From positions 1-33,224 of the forward strand of contig WNDP01000036.1 in assembly GCA_009912575.1 (NCBI GenBank): a stretch of 33,224 bases of DNA, written 5' to 3'. Source of the stretch: Acinetobacter bereziniae (GTDB taxonomy: Bacteria > Pseudomonadota > Gammaproteobacteria > Pseudomonadales > Moraxellaceae). This document shows, piece by piece, positions 12,088 through 33,012 of the stretch. The stretch's first letter is position 1; each line of letters opens with the position of its first letter. The notes beneath the pieces were generated by a model, which searched no databases, was not told the origin of the DNA, and saw nothing but the letters and a program-made list of their open reading frames with translations. The translations under genes were made by a program, and so were the position numbers.

Positions 12088-12669
12088 TTAGACGGCTGAA
12101 TGATTTGTACTTTCTTGTCTTTTTCTTTTAATCCAACGGATGACAAAAATCACCGCGATAATTCCCACAATCACCACCAAAACAGGAACAATGAACGATA
12201 ATACTGAAACGACTATTGCTCCAATCCATTCGCCTGTAGAAACGACAGGATTTGCGATACCACCTGTGGTTGCAGTCGATAAGCCACGAACTGCAACTGT
12301 TCCCATTTGTACTGCTGTTGCTGTTCCTCCTCCTACAATAATTGCAGATGCCCAACTGGCAAACTGTGACATTTCACCACTACTCACCGCCATGGTGGTT
12401 AGTGTTCCTGCTACCATTGCCGCAGGTGTGGCAATGGTATCTAATGCATTGTCTACCCAAGGGATATAATACGCTCCGATCTCACAGACAGTTGCAACAG
12501 CTAAGCCTATGCACACAGAGGGAATTGCTAACCACTCAAAACCTTTCATAGGTTCAAACCATCCCATCAATGATGCAATGCTCATCACTAAAAGTGGAAC
12601 AAACACACGAAAACCGCAGGCTGCGCTTAAACCAATCCCTATACATAAGCTAAGAAGTGTTTCGATCAT
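12088..12669 (-). CDS. DUF4126 family membrane protein
   Basis: A 193-residue very hydrophobic protein matching DUF4126. Signatures are GLSAACGFRVFVPLLVMS near 13-30, ALDTIATPAAMVAGTL near 75-90, a Gly/Ala-rich GGGTATAVQ segment near 113-121 and a final helix pair ending in the basic IRWIKRKRQES. Five or six membrane helices are likely. The function of the family is not established; the Gly/Ala-rich packing suggests a small channel or transporter, which is speculation. It is 119 nt downstream of the zinc-ribbon gene, on the same strand but separated by a terminator. Confidence 0.85.
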   Translation of the reverse strand: MIETLLSLCIGIGLSAACGFRVFVPLLVMSIASLMGWFEPMKGFEWLAIPSVCIGLAVATVCEIGAYYIPWVDNALDTIATPAAMVAGTLTTMAVSSGEMSQFASWASAIIVGGGTATAVQMGTVAVRGLSTATTGGIANPVVSTGEWIGAIVVSVLSFIVPVLVVIVGIIAVIFVIRWIKRKRQESTNHSAV

Positions 12670-12787: not shown

Positions 12788-12931
12788 TTAGGCATTCTTG
12801 TTGTTGAATTGATTGCCAAGACATTTGGTACACGGAGGTAAACGATCTGTACCAATTTCTAAGTAAACGCGATGTCCACATTGGACACAAAAATAGAAGC
12901 CTGTTCCAGGTTTTTGACCAGCAGTAACCAT
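12788..12931 (-). CDS. 47-residue zinc-ribbon protein
   Basis: A short ORF with a good ribosome binding site (GGAGAACAAAA before ATG). It contains two CxxC knuckles, C15-V-Q-C18 and C34-T-K-C37, spaced as in rubredoxin-like zinc ribbons. The core reads GFYFCVQCGHRVYLEIG and RLPPCTKC. It is probably a small zinc-binding cytoplasmic protein; the partner is unknown. It has its own terminator. Confidence 0.85.
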   Translation of the reverse strand: MVTAGQKPGTGFYFCVQCGHRVYLEIGTDRLPPCTKCLGNQFNNKNA

Positions 12932-13101
12932 TTTTGTTCTCCATAGGTTTTAGAAATGGTGAATAAAGTATAGCCAAATTTTGCTGTATGTCTACTGTCT
13001 ATTTTAAAAAATGATGGTGTCATTTTTGCAAGAAATGATTTCAAAAAGTAATACGATTTTTCTTGTTAACGACTTTCCATAAATTAAAATCCACAAGTTA
13101 A

Positions 13102-13221
13102 TTAAATTGCTTCTCTTTCTTGAGGTGGTTCATCAGTTCTATCTTCCTCGTAAAAATCATCTGGCATTTGTGATAACACATTTAAAAGGCGTTCAGCTGT
13201 TATTGGTTCTTCCATCGTCAT
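13102..13221 (-). CDS. 39-residue protein resembling the C-terminal tail of VapB antitoxins
   Basis: A short ORF with a strong ribosome binding site (GAGGAGAGGATTTT before ATG). After MTMEEPITAERLLNVLSQMP it ends DDFYEEDRTDEPPQEREAI. The pattern D-F-x-x-x-x-R-x-x-x-x-x-QERE-x-(hydrophobic) matches the toxin-binding end of VapB/MvpA antitoxins, whose enterobacterial form ends with DFM, then NREQ and QERESF. The AbrB/MazE-type DNA-binding half is absent and no PIN-domain toxin gene follows. It may be an antitoxin remnant with a new start or a solo small protein. It begins 96 nt after the nuclease-like gene on the same strand, so co-transcription is possible. Confidence 0.6.
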   Translation of the reverse strand: MTMEEPITAERLLNVLSQMPDDFYEEDRTDEPPQEREAI

Positions 13222-13317
13222 AAAATCCTCTCCTCAAATATTTAATTTCATAAGTAAAATCTTTAAAGCTGTTTAACAAAGCAAATCAGTATTTGATGTG
13301 AAGACTAGAGCTATTGT

Positions 13318-14256
13318 CTAAGTAATTATAGGAACTTCAATAGTATTTACAGTAAATAAATTTAGAATATCTTCTCTATCCATAAAAATTATTTGGCTTC
13401 TTTTATTAGCATCTAACTTATTTCCTAGCCAATTGCGTGCAGCTTTCGTAATTTCTCCACCTGCCACAATATAAGCATGATCAACTAAGAGCCTTTTATT
13501 AGTTTCAGGGTCGAATATCTCATGTCCAAGCATCATTGTTGTCTGATTATAAATTTCAGCAATATTATGATTACCTATTTTTGTCATACCAGATGAATCT
13601 AATTTTCCTTTTTTTACTTGAATACCAAAATAAATTATATGTTGTGTTGGTAACAGAAATTTCATCCAAATATCTTTACCATATTCCAATGCTTTATTTT
13701 TATGACCAGCTACTGTAATCCTTTGAAATCCCAATATTCTAAATAAAGGTAATAAAATTTTTTCAATTAGGTCATCCTCGGAACCTTTATCTAAAAAATC
13801 TATAAGGAACTTTCGCTTTTTTAATTCTTCTTCTGAAAATGGCCTATGCGGATTTTCATTGGGTTTAATGAAATTATTAGTTTTAAGATTTCTTATATAT
13901 AAATTATTATCGCTACCATAAAAGGCTTCGAATCCTTCTCTACTTAATGGCTTATTGAGTTGACTCAATGCATTTACTCTATAAGGATCATGTTCTGTTG
14001 CATCAGATTTATGCATTAAAACTCTTAGAACATGTACAAATTTATCAGGCAATGAATTCGTTGGGCATGGCACCTCTAATAATTCTTGTAATCGTTCAGA
14101 AGTCCATGACCATCGAGTAGTACCATTATGTTTAAAGGGTAAATCACACTCTTCAAAAAACTCAGTAATATAACTACTACTACGATATGGGAAATGTTCC
14201 TTATCACCTATAATACACTCTGCAATTTCTTTTAAATTTCTTGATTTAAATTTCAT
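13318..14256 (-). CDS. Predicted defence nuclease: AbiJ-N-terminal-like domain plus Mrr-like endonuclease domain
   Basis: A 312-residue protein from ATG 14256; a TTG at 14268 would add four residues. Numbering here follows the TTG. The N-terminus (FPYRSSSYITEFFEECDLPF then HNGTTRWSWTSERLQELL, residues 26-64) resembles the small domain at the front of AbiJ-type abortive infection proteins. The C-terminal half looks like a PD-(D/E)xK restriction fold of the Mrr type: acidic residues in EDDLIEKILLPLF (164-176), GF/AGHK (180-190), D199 in YGKDIW and Q217-V-K219 in FGIQVKKGK. A linker with FSEEELKKRK lies between. It probably cleaves DNA or RNA in response to phage or stress, which is inference from fold. 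It has no methylase partner nearby. The gene looks more AT-rich than the adjacent acnD, which suggests transfer. Confidence 0.68.
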   Translation of the reverse strand: MKFKSRNLKEIAECIIGDKEHFPYRSSSYITEFFEECDLPFKHNGTTRWSWTSERLQELLEVPCPTNSLPDKFVHVLRVLMHKSDATEHDPYRVNALSQLNKPLSREGFEAFYGSDNNLYIRNLKTNNFIKPNENPHRPFSEEELKKRKFLIDFLDKGSEDDLIEKILLPLFRILGFQRITVAGHKNKALEYGKDIWMKFLLPTQHIIYFGIQVKKGKLDSSGMTKIGNHNIAEIYNQTTMMLGHEIFDPETNKRLLVDHAYIVAGGEITKAARNWLGNKLDANKRSQIIFMDREDILNLFTVNTIEVPIIT

Positions 14257-14274
14257 TTTTTCACTCAAAATAAA

Positions 14275-14294
14275 ACCCCACTTAACAGTAGGGT
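14275..14294. terminator. Hairpin in front of the nuclease gene
   Basis: ACCCCAC (14275-14281) pairs with GTAGGGT (14288-14294), with one G-T pair and a 6-nt loop. T-rich sequence follows on both strands. It could be a second terminator that shields the nuclease gene from acnD read-through, or one that blocks antisense transcription. Confidence 0.5.
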
Positions 14295-14313
14295 CTTTTT
14301 ACAACAATATCAA
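14285..14313 (-). promoter_or_regulatory. Candidate promoter of the nuclease gene
   Basis: On the minus strand TTGATA (14313-14308) and TACTGT (14290-14285) are 17 nt apart. The predicted start near 14278 gives a leader of about 20 nt to the ATG. The -10 overlaps the hairpin, so both cannot be used in the same way. Confidence 0.45.
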
Positions 14314-14353
14314 TTGCTTTTAATAATCCTTCATTAATCTTCTTTTAAAAGAG

Positions 14354-14383
14354 AAAAACTCCCTCCTTTTTCAAAGAAGAGTT
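14354..14383 (-). terminator. Terminator of acnD
   Basis: On the minus strand AACTCTT pairs with GGGAGTT (two G-T pairs) and is followed by a T-rich tail. It lies 26 nt after the acnD stop. Confidence 0.65.
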
Positions 14384-14408
14384 GGGGAGGATTAAAAATT
14401 AGACTAAA

Positions 14409-17015
14409 TCAAGCTACATTACCTTCCAAGAAATCCTGTGCAAAGCGTTGTAAAACACCACCTGCTTCATACACATGTACTTCTTCTTCAGTATCCAGAC
14501 GACAAGTCACAGGAACTTCAATGACTTCACTCTTACCGTCAGCCGTGGCACGCTCAATGACCAAAGTTAAATCTGTGCGTGGTGCAATATTACCGATCAC
14601 ACTATAAAGCTCAGTACCATCAAGCTTTAAGGTTTTACGATCTGTTCCCGCTTTAAACTCAAGTGGTAAAACTCCCATACCCACAAGATTGGTACGATGA
14701 ATACGCTCAAAACCTTCAGCAACAATCGCTTCAACCCCAGCAAGACGAACACCTTTTGCAGCCCAATCACGGCTTGAGCCTTGACCATAATCTTTACCTG
14801 CAATGATGATCAGTGGTTGCTTACGATTCATATAAGTCTCAATCGCTTCCCACATACGCATCACTTCGCCTTCAGGTTCAACACGTGCTTTAGAACCCTG
14901 CTTAATCGTACCGTCAGAACGAACCACCATTTCATTAAACAATTTTGGATTGGCAAATGTTGCACGTTGTGCAGTCAAATGATCACCACGATGCGTTGCA
15001 TAAGAGTTAAAATCTTCTTCAGGAAGCCCCATTTTATGCAGGTACTCACCCGCAGCAGAATCCATCATGATGGCATTCGATGGCGATAAATGATCCGTGG
15101 TAATGTTGTCAGGTAAAATTGCCAGTGGGCGCATATTCGATAGTGTTCGTGGCGCAGCAAACGCACCTTCCCAGTACGGTGGGCGACGAATATAAGTACT
15201 TTGTGGACGCCAATCATATAACGGGCTTTCAGACTTTTCAGCCACACCCAAATCAAACATCGGGATATAGACTTTACGGAACTGTTCTGGTTTAACTGAT
15301 TCTTTCACCAAAGCATCAATTTCAGCATCCGATGGCCAAATGTCTTTTAAATAAATCGAATTACCGTCTTTATCATTCCCTAATGCATCCGTTTCGATAT
15401 CAAAACGAATTGTCCCTGCAATTGCATAAGCCACAACCAATGGTGGTGAAGCCAAGAATGCTTGTTTAGCATAAGGGTGAATACGACCATCAAAGTTACG
15501 GTTACCAGAAAGTACCGCAGTCGCATACAAATCACGATCAATAATTTCTTGCTGAATCTTTGGGTCTAAAGCTCCAGACATACCATTACAGGTTGTACAT
15601 GCATATGCTACGATCCCAAAACCTAATTTTTCTAAATCATCCATCACACCTGCTTCTTCAAGGTATAAAGCTGCTGCTTTAGAGCCTGGTGCAAATGATG
15701 ATTTCACCCAAGGTTTACGTGTTAAACCCAATTCATTTGCTTTACGTGCCAATAAACCTGCGGCAACTGTATTACGTGGATTAGAAGTATTGGTACAAGA
15801 GGTAATTGCAGCAATAATGATTGCCCCATCTGGCATTAAGCCATCAGTACGGTTTTCAACAACACCTGCAATCCCTTTTTCTTTGAGGTCTGCTGTAGAT
15901 ACACGGGCATGTGGGTTCGATGGACCTGCAATATTACGTGTTACAGTAGAAAGATCAAAACGCAGTACACGTGGATACTCAGCTTGTTTCATCTCCGATG
16001 CCCAAAGACCGATTTCTTTGGCATATGCTTCAACTAATTTGATTTGATCCGCTTCACGACCTGTCAGCGTTAAATAATCAATGGTGTTCTGGTCAATGTA
16101 GAACATTGCTGCAGTTGCACCATACTCAGGTGTCATGTTTGAAATCGTTGCACGATCTCCAACAGACATGCTGTCCGCACCTTCACCAAAAAATTCTAAA
16201 TAAGCACCAACTACACGCTCTTTACGCAAAAACTCGGTTAACGCTAAAACGATATCTGTTGCCGTAATGCCTGCTTTGCGTTGCCCAACCAGCTCTACAC
16301 CGATAATGTCAGGTAAACGCATCCAAGATGCGCGCCCAAGCATGACATTTTCGGCTTCCAAACCACCGACACCTACAGAAATTACGCCGAGTGCATCGGT
16401 ATGCGGTGTATGTGAATCGGTTCCGACACAGGTGTCAGGGAAAGCAAGACCTTCCTGACTTTGAATCACTGGAGACATTTTCTCCAAGTTGATTTGATGC
16501 ATGATGCCATTACCTGCTGGGATGACATCGACATTTTCAAACGCAGTTTTGGTCCACTCGATAAAGTGAAAACGGTCTTCGTTACGACGGTCTTCTACAG
16601 CACGGTTTTTCTCAAAAGCATCTGGGTCAAAACCGCCGTATTCCACTGCCAAAGAGTGGTCAACAATCAACTGGGTTGGAACAACAGGATTCACTTTTGC
16701 TGGATCACCACCTTGATCTGCAATCGCATCACGTAAACCGGCAAGATCTACCAATGCTGTTTGTCCAAGAATGTCATGGCACACCACTCGTGCTGGATAC
16801 CATGGGAAATCGTGATCTTGCTTACGATGGATTAATTCTTTGAGTGACTGTTCGAGAATGGCAGGATCACAACGGCGTACCAATTGCTCCGCCAATACTT
16901 TTGATGTGTATGGAAGTTTTGCATATGCGCCTTGTTGGATGTCTTCTACGGCTTGACGCACATCGAAGTATTCGAGCTGGGTACCTTGCAGGGGTTTACG
17001 ATAATTTTTATTCAT
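14409..17015 (-). CDS. acnD: Fe/S-dependent 2-methylisocitrate dehydratase (AcnD)
   Basis: An aconitase-family enzyme of 868 residues when started at MNKNYRKPLQG, the usual AcnD length and N-terminus; the longer frame to 17087 adds 24 unrelated residues. It dehydrates 2-methylcitrate in propionate catabolism, normally together with the isomerase PrpF. The 4Fe-4S ligands are C407 (ITSCTNTSNPRNT) and C473/C476 (ACTTCNGMSG). Other signatures are ARVVCHDILGQTALVDLA near 75-92, GTDSHTPHTDALGV near 198-211 and, in the swivel domain, GKDYGQGSSRDWAAKG. Distinguishing it from AcnA rests on the N-terminus and length. AAAGGCA precedes the ATG. prpB, prpC and prpF are not in the window, so the gene stands alone, with a terminator behind it. 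Confidence 0.88.
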   Translation of the reverse strand: MNKNYRKPLQGTQLEYFDVRQAVEDIQQGAYAKLPYTSKVLAEQLVRRCDPAILEQSLKELIHRKQDHDFPWYPARVVCHDILGQTALVDLAGLRDAIADQGGDPAKVNPVVPTQLIVDHSLAVEYGGFDPDAFEKNRAVEDRRNEDRFHFIEWTKTAFENVDVIPAGNGIMHQINLEKMSPVIQSQEGLAFPDTCVGTDSHTPHTDALGVISVGVGGLEAENVMLGRASWMRLPDIIGVELVGQRKAGITATDIVLALTEFLRKERVVGAYLEFFGEGADSMSVGDRATISNMTPEYGATAAMFYIDQNTIDYLTLTGREADQIKLVEAYAKEIGLWASEMKQAEYPRVLRFDLSTVTRNIAGPSNPHARVSTADLKEKGIAGVVENRTDGLMPDGAIIIAAITSCTNTSNPRNTVAAGLLARKANELGLTRKPWVKSSFAPGSKAAALYLEEAGVMDDLEKLGFGIVAYACTTCNGMSGALDPKIQQEIIDRDLYATAVLSGNRNFDGRIHPYAKQAFLASPPLVVAYAIAGTIRFDIETDALGNDKDGNSIYLKDIWPSDAEIDALVKESVKPEQFRKVYIPMFDLGVAEKSESPLYDWRPQSTYIRRPPYWEGAFAAPRTLSNMRPLAILPDNITTDHLSPSNAIMMDSAAGEYLHKMGLPEEDFNSYATHRGDHLTAQRATFANPKLFNEMVVRSDGTIKQGSKARVEPEGEVMRMWEAIETYMNRKQPLIIIAGKDYGQGSSRDWAAKGVRLAGVEAIVAEGFERIHRTNLVGMGVLPLEFKAGTDRKTLKLDGTELYSVIGNIAPRTDLTLVIERATADGKSEVIEVPVTCRLDTEEEVHVYEAGGVLQRFAQDFLEGNVA

Positions 17016-17254
17016 TGCCTTTGTGCCTCTTGCATCGTTTTGTACTGCGTGTCTAATGTTTGGCATAGTACACTGTCGAAAACCCATTTCCCAAATCGTT
17101 TATATTTCATGAGCTTAGGTATAAAAACAGGGGGGTTTTGAAGTATTTAGTAACAACCTCATTAAAATATTTGCGCTAAAACTGCTTTTTTTTGAAAAAT
17201 AGCGGAAAATAAGATTAATTCTTTAGTATTAGATTTAAGACAAGCGAGCAATTC

Positions 17255-30069: not shown

Positions 30070-32193
30070 TTAAAATTGTTTGGTGACACTTAAACCTGCA
30101 CTCCAGTTAATACCATCTGCAGGTTCAAAGAATCGCCCATTACCATCATTTACAATGACTGAACCCACATAGTTTTTATCAAATAAATTATCGACTCGAG
30201 CAAAACTACGAACTTTCCAATCTTTGTTTTTCCAGATATAACCGACATTTAGGCTGGTGACTGTATAACTTGGTGCAGTATCTGTATTGAGATCGTCAAC
30301 ATAGATTTTATCCATATAACGAACATCGACCCCAGCATTTAAACCACTTTCTGGAAGCCAACCAAGTCCAATAAAGGCTTGATTTTTAGCAATACCGGGA
30401 ATGTAGTTTCCACTTTGGATGACTTTTTTCGGATCTGTGTTTGGAATATCTGCATCAAATGTTGCATCTAGGAAGCTATAACTGGCTTGTGCAGTAATAT
30501 CTTTCCATAATTTTTTATTCCAAGACAATTCAACGCCTTGACGCAATGTCTTGTCAGCATTTTGATAGGTCGCTCGACCATCCACAGATCCAGCAGAAAC
30601 AATATCATCTTGGGTATTGCTTTGGAAAACTGCAGCCGTGAAATTCCCTAATTGATTTTGAGCTTTTATGCCCAGTTCATAATTATCACTGGTCGAAGGT
30701 TTCAGTGCAAAGTTAATCCCTGAAGTTCCACTGGTTGGATAAGCCATTTCAGTAAAAGTCGGTGTTTCAAAACCTTTGGCATAGCTAATATAACTGCTGA
30801 TCTCAGGTGTAATTTCCCATGTCAAAGCAGCTGATGGAAGTACTTTGTTATAATCTGTTTGCCCACTATCGTTGCCATTAGAGCTTGTGATGTAATGATC
30901 TTTAGATTCATAATGTACATTGCTATAACGCAATCCTGTATCTAGGCGTACAGTTGGCAAAAATTGCCAAGACGCCTGAAGATAAGGGTCTAAATTCCAT
31001 AAAGTATTTCGTTCATCACGACGTAACGTGCCTTTTACCCCGTATTGACCACTGGCATCAAAATTCTCATATCCTTGGCGATCTTCATTCATAGCATCAT
31101 AAGCAAGCCCTAAACTGATACGCGTGTTCGGCAAAAGCTCTTTACCAGTCCAACGTAAATCTGCACCATAAAAATCTCTAGAGAAATCAATGACACCACC
31201 TGCATGGCGAGGATTCTTTTGGGCTGTATTCGGAATAGATTGATATTGTGTGACCTCTCGATGACCTAAATAAGCCATTGAATAAATTTCATTTTGGTCG
31301 TTGATGGGTTTGGTCCAATTAACACCTGTTTGTGTCTGATTAATATCTTTGCGCACATTATAGATATTCTTACTGTCATTCACTTGTTTAGGGTTTTGCT
31401 TCCATTGATCCCGACTGAGACCTTGTGGATCATCTGCATAAATATTTACGTAATTGGTGATCCAATTAATTTTTGAGCCGTCATCCAAATCCCAAGTGAG
31501 TTTAGCATTACTCAAAGTTTTTCTTGCTGCACTATGATCACGATAGCCATCAGTATCAAAATACGAAGAACTAATCACATAACTTGGCTCATTGGCTTTA
31601 TCCGCACCACCTTGTAAAACAATATCAGCACGCCCTTTATTGTTACTTCCGCCTGAGTATCCTAACTCAACCGAATCGCGCCCTGCTCCCTCTTTGGTCG
31701 TGGTTAGAATCGTTCCCCCTGATGAATTTCCATATAGTGATGAAAAAGGGCCACCCAACACTTCGATATGATCCAAACTGCTTAAGTCAATATTTGAAGT
31801 TTGACCTTGCCCATCTGGCATGGTTGCAGGAATGCCATCCACATACAAACGGATACCACGGACACCAAAGGTTGAACGAGCACCGAAGCCTCGCACGGAC
31901 AGTTGTAAATCTTGCGCATAATTTTCACGGTTATTGAGCTGTAAGCCCGGAATACCTTTGAGAGTTTCAGTGAGGTTCACTCCCATATTATTTTGATTTT
32001 GTTGTTGGTCTATACGATAAACAGATGCAGGCGTATTGAGTATGCTCGTATCTGAGCGTGTTGCCTCAACTTTAATCGTGGGGAGTTGCTGAGTGGAATC
32101 CTGAGATTCCGATTCAGCATAGATGTTCTGGGAAATACAGACTGTTAAACAAAGTAGTGTGGTATTAATTTTTAAATGTTTCACTCTTTGCAT
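30070..32193 (-). CDS. pqqU: TonB-dependent receptor, PqqU (YncD) type
   Basis: A 707-residue outer membrane receptor. A signal peptide (LLCLTVCISQNIYA) is followed by the plug domain with NTPASVYRID and LTETLKGIPGLQLNNRENYA, then RGFGARSTFGVRGIRLYVDG, IPATMPDGQGQTSNIDLSSL and GPFSSLYGNSSGG. The 22-strand barrel ends in KQF, with a terminal Phe. The plug and many barrel segments (GYRDHSAARK, TQYQSIPN, DERNTLWNLDPYLQ, RVDNLFDKNYVGSVIVN) closely match what I recall of E. coli YncD/PqqU, the receptor for pyrroloquinoline quinone. GAGGAAACCTAG before the ATG is a strong ribosome binding site. The start overlaps the end of the broken porin by 13 nt; the OYE gene follows. Confidence 0.85.
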   Translation of the reverse strand: MQRVKHLKINTTLLCLTVCISQNIYAESESQDSTQQLPTIKVEATRSDTSILNTPASVYRIDQQQNQNNMGVNLTETLKGIPGLQLNNRENYAQDLQLSVRGFGARSTFGVRGIRLYVDGIPATMPDGQGQTSNIDLSSLDHIEVLGGPFSSLYGNSSGGTILTTTKEGAGRDSVELGYSGGSNNKGRADIVLQGGADKANEPSYVISSSYFDTDGYRDHSAARKTLSNAKLTWDLDDGSKINWITNYVNIYADDPQGLSRDQWKQNPKQVNDSKNIYNVRKDINQTQTGVNWTKPINDQNEIYSMAYLGHREVTQYQSIPNTAQKNPRHAGGVIDFSRDFYGADLRWTGKELLPNTRISLGLAYDAMNEDRQGYENFDASGQYGVKGTLRRDERNTLWNLDPYLQASWQFLPTVRLDTGLRYSNVHYESKDHYITSSNGNDSGQTDYNKVLPSAALTWEITPEISSYISYAKGFETPTFTEMAYPTSGTSGINFALKPSTSDNYELGIKAQNQLGNFTAAVFQSNTQDDIVSAGSVDGRATYQNADKTLRQGVELSWNKKLWKDITAQASYSFLDATFDADIPNTDPKKVIQSGNYIPGIAKNQAFIGLGWLPESGLNAGVDVRYMDKIYVDDLNTDTAPSYTVTSLNVGYIWKNKDWKVRSFARVDNLFDKNYVGSVIVNDGNGRFFEPADGINWSAGLSVTKQF

Positions 32194-33012
32194 CTAGGTT
32201 TCCTCGGATGATTGCAGAAAATAATTTTAGACTCCAAGCCAATGACCAATGCATTGTCAACCTGATTGGTTGCACCAGGATGCACCACATACTGCACTAA
32301 AGGACGAAGCATGAACCATTTGGCAGGGTAATATGAGTAATTTAACTCAACATTATACTCTGCATCCTCATTCAGCTGTCTTAAATTTGTGCCTAAGCGA
32401 CTATTATTCACATAATCCGTATAACGATCGTTCAAATGTACTCTATTGACGGCCAAACCTAAAATATCATTAGGCTGGCTTTCAAATAGTCCATAATACT
32501 TTAAACCCAGTTGTTGTGAATCACTGACGGCTGTTGTCGTTCGATCATGTACAGTAAAATTACCAAAGCTATGTAAACCTCGTTTGCCCTCGCCTACTGA
32601 AGTCAGTTGCTGTTCAAAGGCAATCCATCCTCCATATGTACGATCTTCAGCCTGGGTTCCTGCTTTATAAGCCACATCGTACTGATTTTTAGCCTCATCA
32701 GCAGTATTGTAAAGCGTACCAAAGCGATAACTCTGCCTGGTAAATCATTGAAACCCTGCTTTGGTGACCACACCACTTCAGAAACAATATTTACTCCATC
32801 AGCATGTTTGGTATCCAAGTTCCAGCCTTGACGCTCCAAAGCATTGTCTGGGTTGTATTCAAAAACACCAACTTGTACGAATAATTCAGGATTGATTTGA
32901 TACTTCAAGCGTCCACCCCATTGTGAAACGGGTGTGTTATACCAAAGCTTACCTTGCCATTTCCCCATTTGCGCAGCACAAAATGCATTGCCTTGGAAAT
33001 CACAAGCCATGG
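32181..33012 (-). pseudogene. OprB-family carbohydrate porin, cut by IS3 and frameshifted
   Basis: The remaining C-terminal part of an OprB-like sugar porin. From the IS end it reads CDFQGNAFCAAQMGKWQGK, then WYNTPVSQWGGRLKYQINPE and VFEYNPDNALERQGWNLDTK, up to GFNDLPG. At 32731-32736 the frame changes: an extra AG (AGAG) or a missing base moves the reading to SYRFGTLYNTADEAKNQYDV, which continues to the end. The last strand finishes GLESKIIF, where OprB porins normally stop; here a Cys codon replaces the stop and nine extra residues overlap the receptor gene. The N-terminal half is missing or lies beyond the IS. OprB porins admit glucose and other sugars. Confidence 0.82.

Follow-up and report, generated by a model that had tools for sequence, protein, structure and literature searches.

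A candidate anti-phage nuclease with an AbiJ-like N-terminal domain next to a VapB tail in a variable acnD slot of Acinetobacter

Architecture of the acnD locus

We analyzed a 33,224-nucleotide stretch of DNA from Acinetobacter bereziniae (contig WNDP01000036.1, hereafter the window), which belongs to an Acinetobacter-type draft genome of 335 contigs (G000) and encodes a candidate single-gene anti-phage nuclease of the AbiJ N-terminal domain (NTD)/restriction endonuclease (REase) kind. The minus strand carries, in order, acnD, the nuclease gene, a 39-residue open reading frame (ORF), a 47-residue Zn-ribbon protein and a DUF4126 protein (Table 1), and the same gene order exists in relatives named Acinetobacter halotolerans, modestus, venetianus and nosocomialis. 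The nuclease ORF runs from an ATG at 14256 to a stop at 13318 (an upstream TTG gives 316 residues). Its length of 312 residues and the place of the small ORF, 96 nt behind it on the same strand, are as described in a first-pass annotation made from the DNA letters. Judged from their relatives and matches, both ORFs exceed chance.

Between acnD and the nuclease stand two terminator-like hairpins, in line with that annotation, and the second lies 15 nt from the nuclease ATG. The promoter that the annotation had tentatively assigned to the nuclease was not recovered: a scan of the minus strand upstream of the gene, which covers the sigma-70-like type only, found no site. The terminator scan found no terminator-like site between the nuclease and the 39-residue ORF, so co-transcription of the two is possible.

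Table 1 Features of the acnD slot in the window
Feature	Position	Strand	Basis or note
312-aa predicted nuclease, AbiJ-type N-terminal domain and PD-(D/E)xK domain	13318..14256	(-)	ORF, 79-member alignment, AF2 model
Nuclease N-terminal domain, residues 1–138, H43-N/D-G-x-T-R48-x-x-W51	13843..14256	(-)	
Nuclease C-terminal PD-(D/E)xK domain, residues 144–312	13321..13827	(-)	
Codon of D195, proposed metal ligand	13672..13674	(-)	D in 79/79
Codons of Q213-V-K215, proposed remainder of active site	13612..13620	(-)	Q in 78/79, K in 79/79
39-aa ORF, putative VapC-binding tail of VapB without AbrB domain	13102..13221	(-)	Profile and sequence comparison
AGGAGAGGA, possible ribosome-binding site of the 39-aa ORF	13226..13234	(-)	Read from sequence
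acnD, left border of the cargo slot	14409..17087	(-)	Name carried over from the first-pass annotation
Terminator-like hairpin behind acnD	14361..14381	(-)	Terminator scan
Terminator-like hairpin directly before the nuclease start	14272..14297	(-)	Terminator scan
47-aa Zn-ribbon protein, right border of the slot	12788..12931	(-)	Pfam DUF1451, E 5.6e-7
DUF4126 protein, conserved flank	12088..12669	(-)	E 1.8e-49

A widespread nuclease family with a predicted PD-(D/E)xK domain

The window nuclease matches no model in Pfam, NCBIfam, PADLOC or PHROGs. Its relatives were collected from genome_contigs, where the best 80 of 109 stretches were used; these are mostly full-length, share 54–81% best-segment identity and come from Pseudomonadota, Actinomycetota, Bacteroidota, Acidobacteria, Planctomycetes and other phyla. 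In a 79-row alignment of the window protein with 78 of the 80 loci (the incomplete L092 and the short L047 were left out), every sequence has D195 and K215, and 78 have Q213. The first-pass annotation had singled out these residues correctly, but its numbers (199, 217 and 219) fit the 316-residue TTG form.

Within the genus, the nuclease search matched 12 of 176 genomes, window included: seven of these hits are near-full-length, one is a broken copy (G117) and one a fragment (G152), while the other three are proteins that have just the N-terminal domain in common with the nuclease. Matches also occur on 46 of 72,556 plasmid records, 24 of which are typed conjugative; the phage records searched gave none. 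The family is widespread, strongly conserved and uncharacterized. In G117, the broken nuclease (L109:2229-2375) abuts the start of an ORF seen as a 341-aa transposase-like ORF in L168, and the N-terminal piece of the gene is found on a different contig.

The AF2 model of the nuclease (pLDDT 81.3, pTM 0.56) has a C-terminal domain whose fold matches AspBHI, MspJI and FokI, the top two being AspBHI and MspJI. Both hallmarks of the MspJI/Mrr group are present, the PD-(D/E)xK core fold in the model and the conserved D...(E/Q)xK residues as D195, Q213 and K215. The Mrr_cat family (PF04471) does not match the window nuclease itself; scanned singly, eight of the 79 members match it weakly (best E 0.01). 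The nuclease-like C-terminus proposed earlier is borne out by the fold match and these members. The C-terminal HEPN domain that characterizes the AbiJ family is absent, this part being modelled as a nuclease fold. MspJI is a modification-dependent restriction endonuclease, and the active-site motif of MspJI and AspBHI is D...QxK. The window protein shares their cleavage-domain fold and D...QxK arrangement but differs in its N-terminal part, which is unmatched to either among the VIA matches listed. The nuclease is probably a DNA-cutting enzyme.

An N-terminal domain found before different C-termini

The N-terminal domain is confidently modelled by AF2 and has no clear match in the PDB. Scanned singly, nine of the 79 members match AbiJ_NTD3 (PF18860) weakly (best E 0.012), as do nine in a 62-sequence subset of the alignment (best relative E 0.0065). 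The window nuclease has no PF18860 match over the Pfam cut-off, and nothing was found in its genome at E<=0.01. Because two AbiJ_NTD3 proteins compared directly with the domain by hhalign aligned weakly (10.8% over 48 columns), we label it AbiJ-NTD-like in architecture rather than a member of PF18860; the AbiJ-type N-terminus of the first-pass annotation is supported in this broad sense only.

The same domain precedes other C-termini. In G108, G162 and G084 (L009-L011, 278–281 aa), it was recognized by the N-terminal-domain HMM in a three-sequence search (E 3e-27, 3e-26 and 7e-21) and by hhalign (99.3%). For one of these proteins DUF4145 is a weak match (E 0.045), and another is unmatched; their RNLIHP motif looks HEPN-like. 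A further protein, in G652 (L234:904-1758), carries the domain before yet another C-terminus. Its ORF overlaps one that resembles a methyltransferase by eye. A class-wide profile search for the domain matched two of 369 genomes, the window's included.

In a 2013 analysis (PMC3710099), AbiJ-NTD1-5 are described before HEPN, REase, TIR and kinase domains, with NTD3 paired with DUF2726 and NTD1 and NTD2 with Mrr. An Abi-type NTD before an REase is therefore an architecture of a known kind. The window nuclease shares with these fusions the order of an Abi-type NTD and a restriction-endonuclease fold, and the occurrence of such NTDs before HEPN as well; it differs in that its NTD matches NTD3 weakly and its partner is MspJI/Mrr-like.

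A slot with variable cargo behind acnD

The DUF4126 gene, present in 100 of 176 genomes, served as an anchor for a slot survey. It covers 96 regions, the window and 95 of the 99 other DUF4126 genomes (G165, G129, G163 and G169 were left out at contig ends). In 90 of the 96, acnD lies within reach of the anchor. The interval from acnD to the Zn-ribbon gene (window 12931-14409; L121-L215) spans 254–4400 bp with varied cargo, and 134 of its 159 ORFs of at least 80 aa lie on the strand of acnD. Of 90 slots, 51 contain a hairpin-like text pattern that fits the hairpin before the nuclease start; its first match lies 36–131 nt behind the acnD stop. All seven near-full-length nucleases of the genus are located in this slot, including that of G079.

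Cargo models were scanned over 96 of the 97 slot clusters, all but the one with the window's nuclease, and were tallied for slot cargo only, as the best 25 of 309 and the best 25 of 51 families. The matches listed include AAA/OLD-type ATPases together with AbiLi, AriA, PtuA, GajA and HEC-01 models; the defence models each match at most six of 96 proteins and mostly overlap ATPase models. Also listed are SIR2, GmrSD, a reverse transcriptase, a kinase, transposases and metabolic genes.

Sequence comparison suggests that the slot is exchanged, because the synonymous divergence (dS) between the window and G059 is 1.21 for the tail and 0.40 for acnD. G059, which carries a full vapBC, is the nearest by acnD of five genomes compared. 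In L144, L170, L193 and L212, second partial acnD 3' ends lie inside the slot, as if cassettes had brought their own acnD end.

A VapB tail without its toxin

The 39-residue ORF corresponds to the C-terminal half of VapB. Its match to the NCBIfam VapB model NF047862 is confined to residues 10–39 (E 4.5e-4; score 20.2 bits, cut-off 100). It has no Pfam hit, so that the AbrB/MazE DNA-binding domain is absent. The window's draft genome holds neither a VapC relative (best E 0.35) nor a PF01850 PIN match at E<=0.001. The description of this ORF as a VapB tail lacking both DNA-binding domain and PIN toxin is therefore upheld. Of the 22 positions that never vary among 13 full-length slot VapBs, it keeps 18; these positions outline a putative VapC-binding tail. 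The 39-aa sequence alone retrieves nothing from the PDB; the G117 VapB matches 3zvk and 6nkl (E 2.6e-13 and 3.7e-9), VapBC structures from R. felis and H. influenzae. Compared with these VapBs, the ORF lacks the AbrB/MazE domain and VapC.

Across the genus, 27 of 176 genomes match the ORF at E<=0.05, window included, and in most of them the tail forms the end of a VapB whose N-terminus is of the AbrB/MazE type. VapC follows VapB in 13 of the 96 slots (in L193 in two pieces), in relatives both with and without the nuclease. The slot of G117 has the order nuclease remnant, vapB, vapC, Zn-ribbon, with a PIN match in its VapC at E 8.3e-20. Since slot relatives, G117 among them, carry a full vapB-vapC, the window would represent a G117-like arrangement that has lost vapC and the front of vapB. 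The DNA upstream of the ORF shows no detectable likeness to vapB when compared with two vapB genes.

Related tails occur elsewhere in the slot. G031 has one with neither nuclease nor vapC. An alignment of the window with G031, 295 bp long at 83%, reaches from the tail into the Zn-ribbon leader and includes about 60 poorly alike bp right after the tail. The two tails differ by ten synonymous and six non-synonymous changes (dS 0.73; non-synonymous divergence, dN, 0.07), for which P is 2.4e-4 under neutrality in a simple binomial test of this one genome pair. Elsewhere in this pair, dS is 0.64 for acnD, 1.40 for DUF4126 and 0.26 for the Zn-ribbon gene. Tails without an AbrB domain are also present in G113 and G064 as 53–54-aa proteins, in which M-(T/P)-I-E-K...LP.IE... 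precedes the tail (L123, L174), and in G081, where the tail ends a 277-aa protein for which Pfam gives nothing below E 0.4 (L175:935-1765, the same gene as L112:1495-2328).

Neighbors of the nuclease

We tallied up to five ORFs of at least 60 aa on each side of the nuclease in the 79 loci. No neighbor family recurs in more than four of them, and the clusters common to four all come from four Acinetobacter or four Pseudomonas. At loci other than the four from Acinetobacter, 114 ORFs of 100 aa or more directly adjoin the nuclease; in this set (best 25 of 109 families tallied), Shedu SduA_C matches five among the matches listed, and the other families listed are varied. By homology, the SduA_C neighbors belong to four Pseudomonas loci and one Beijerinckia locus, in the latter on the opposite side of the gene.

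The VapB tail is not found beside the six other near-full-length Acinetobacter nucleases. It is equally missing, within the sequence examined, at 76 further loci, namely the 80 genome_contigs loci minus four that repeat the Acinetobacter copies; some of these loci end soon after the gene. VapB and VapC relatives were likewise not found at the 80 genome_contigs loci.

Far from the slot, at 32181-33010 of the window, two overlapping minus-strand frames resemble, by eye, a single porin-like gene broken by a frame change.

Discussion

We favor, with some reserve, a reading in which the nuclease, housed in the acnD cargo slot, works as a solitary defence effector with two domains and the 39-residue ORF is a leftover of vapBC rather than the nuclease's antitoxin. 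It draws on the domain make-up seen in sequence and model, the conserved D-Q-K residues, the lack of a recurrent neighbor and the position in a variable slot with defence-type genes. A sensing module like those joined to HEPN RNases in AbiJ-like proteins would here be coupled to an MspJI/AspBHI/Mrr-type PD-(D/E)xK DNase. Because the same module precedes both the DNase and a HEPN-like partner, it would read an infection cue and release the effector, and would not read the DNA to be cut. The gene sits behind the acnD terminator as one of the cargoes that vary among Acinetobacter species, and is likely an anti-phage gene.

An appreciable though lesser share of our belief goes to a type IV (modification-dependent) restriction enzyme, in which the N-terminal domain would read modified bases and the MspJI-like domain would cut. 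Its two best fold matches, AspBHI and MspJI, are such enzymes, and a family with no neighbor in more than four of 79 loci has no conserved methyltransferase partner. A DNA-repair or housekeeping role is improbable given the patchy distribution of near-full-length copies (seven of 176 genus genomes), the many conjugative plasmids among the matching records and the location amid varied cargo.

That the nuclease and the 39-residue peptide form a new toxin–antitoxin or defence pair, as first proposed, would agree with their shared strand, close spacing and lack of an intervening terminator-like site, and with the vapBC that adjoins the G117 nuclease remnant. Conservation beside nuclease homologues, which the first-pass annotation had set as the test of this pairing, was not found: the tail is missing at the other Acinetobacter copies and the 76 further loci, the nuclease persists without a recurrent neighbor, and the slots of G031, G064, G081 and G113 have tails in genomes with no nuclease match. 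The ORF is probably not the partner of the nuclease, and we consider such a pair very improbable.

Plasmids weigh against our preferred reading. In nine of the 12 plasmid regions viewed (from the 46 matching records), the nuclease has vapB-vapC immediately upstream, about 140–160 bp away, and a functional VapBC–nuclease link is possible. These nine come from Enterobacteriaceae (Escherichia, Klebsiella, Enterobacter and Kosakonia), several being IncF, IncI or IncHI; the viewed Agrobacterium, Ensifer and Rhodococcus plasmids have no vapB-vapC beside the nuclease. By eye, the plasmid VapBs differ in subfamily from the Acinetobacter VapB. The nine regions appear to be one lineage, and we read the block as one travelling unit of plasmid-maintenance and defence genes. 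In six of the nine blocks (L217-L224, L228), an annotated AAA or ATP-binding protein follows on the other strand.

In the solitary-effector reading, the tail would be the toxin-binding end of a vapBC from the Zn-ribbon side of the slot, a different and mostly lost toxin–antitoxin tenant whose vapC is gone, and it may still act as a free antitoxin. The notion that it is a dead remnant whose frame survives by chance is a serious contender, to which we give somewhat less than even weight. The window's genome has no PIN match, nine of 22 VapB-bearing slots hold a VapB tail or a vapB without vapC, some with stops or degenerate sequence, and pairwise selection tests among the G113, G064 and G081 tails are not significant (P 0.16–0.31). 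Against decay stand the scarcity of non-synonymous changes relative to G031 (six of 16), the SD-like sequence before the ATG and the pattern L.......P..FY...R.D...Q.RE kept in all five orphan tails; part of the divergence may predate the loss of vapC. On these comparisons the tail does not look as if it were simply decaying; its conservation fits a free-standing antitoxin and may partly reflect selection before vapC was lost.

Orphan antitoxins acting as free-standing, anti-addiction antitoxins are a known idea (PMC7354431). They share with the tail an antitoxin without its toxin that could neutralize an incoming or departing one; the slot tails differ in that nothing but the toxin-binding end is left, and it recurs at a single chromosomal slot. 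More speculatively, and in our view rather doubtfully, the slot tails might serve as such antitoxins and let a cassette replace a resident vapBC without post-segregational killing. The tail, alone, as a 53–54-aa protein or fused as in G081, would then be a passport for cargo like the nuclease, with recombination at the same site.

An N-terminal domain common to DNase-type and HEPN-like proteins offers a test case of how one sensor might drive different killers, and the acnD slot is a ready collection of cargo genes from Acinetobacter. Functional VapB tails would illustrate how a toxin–antitoxin system can be displaced from a fixed chromosomal site.
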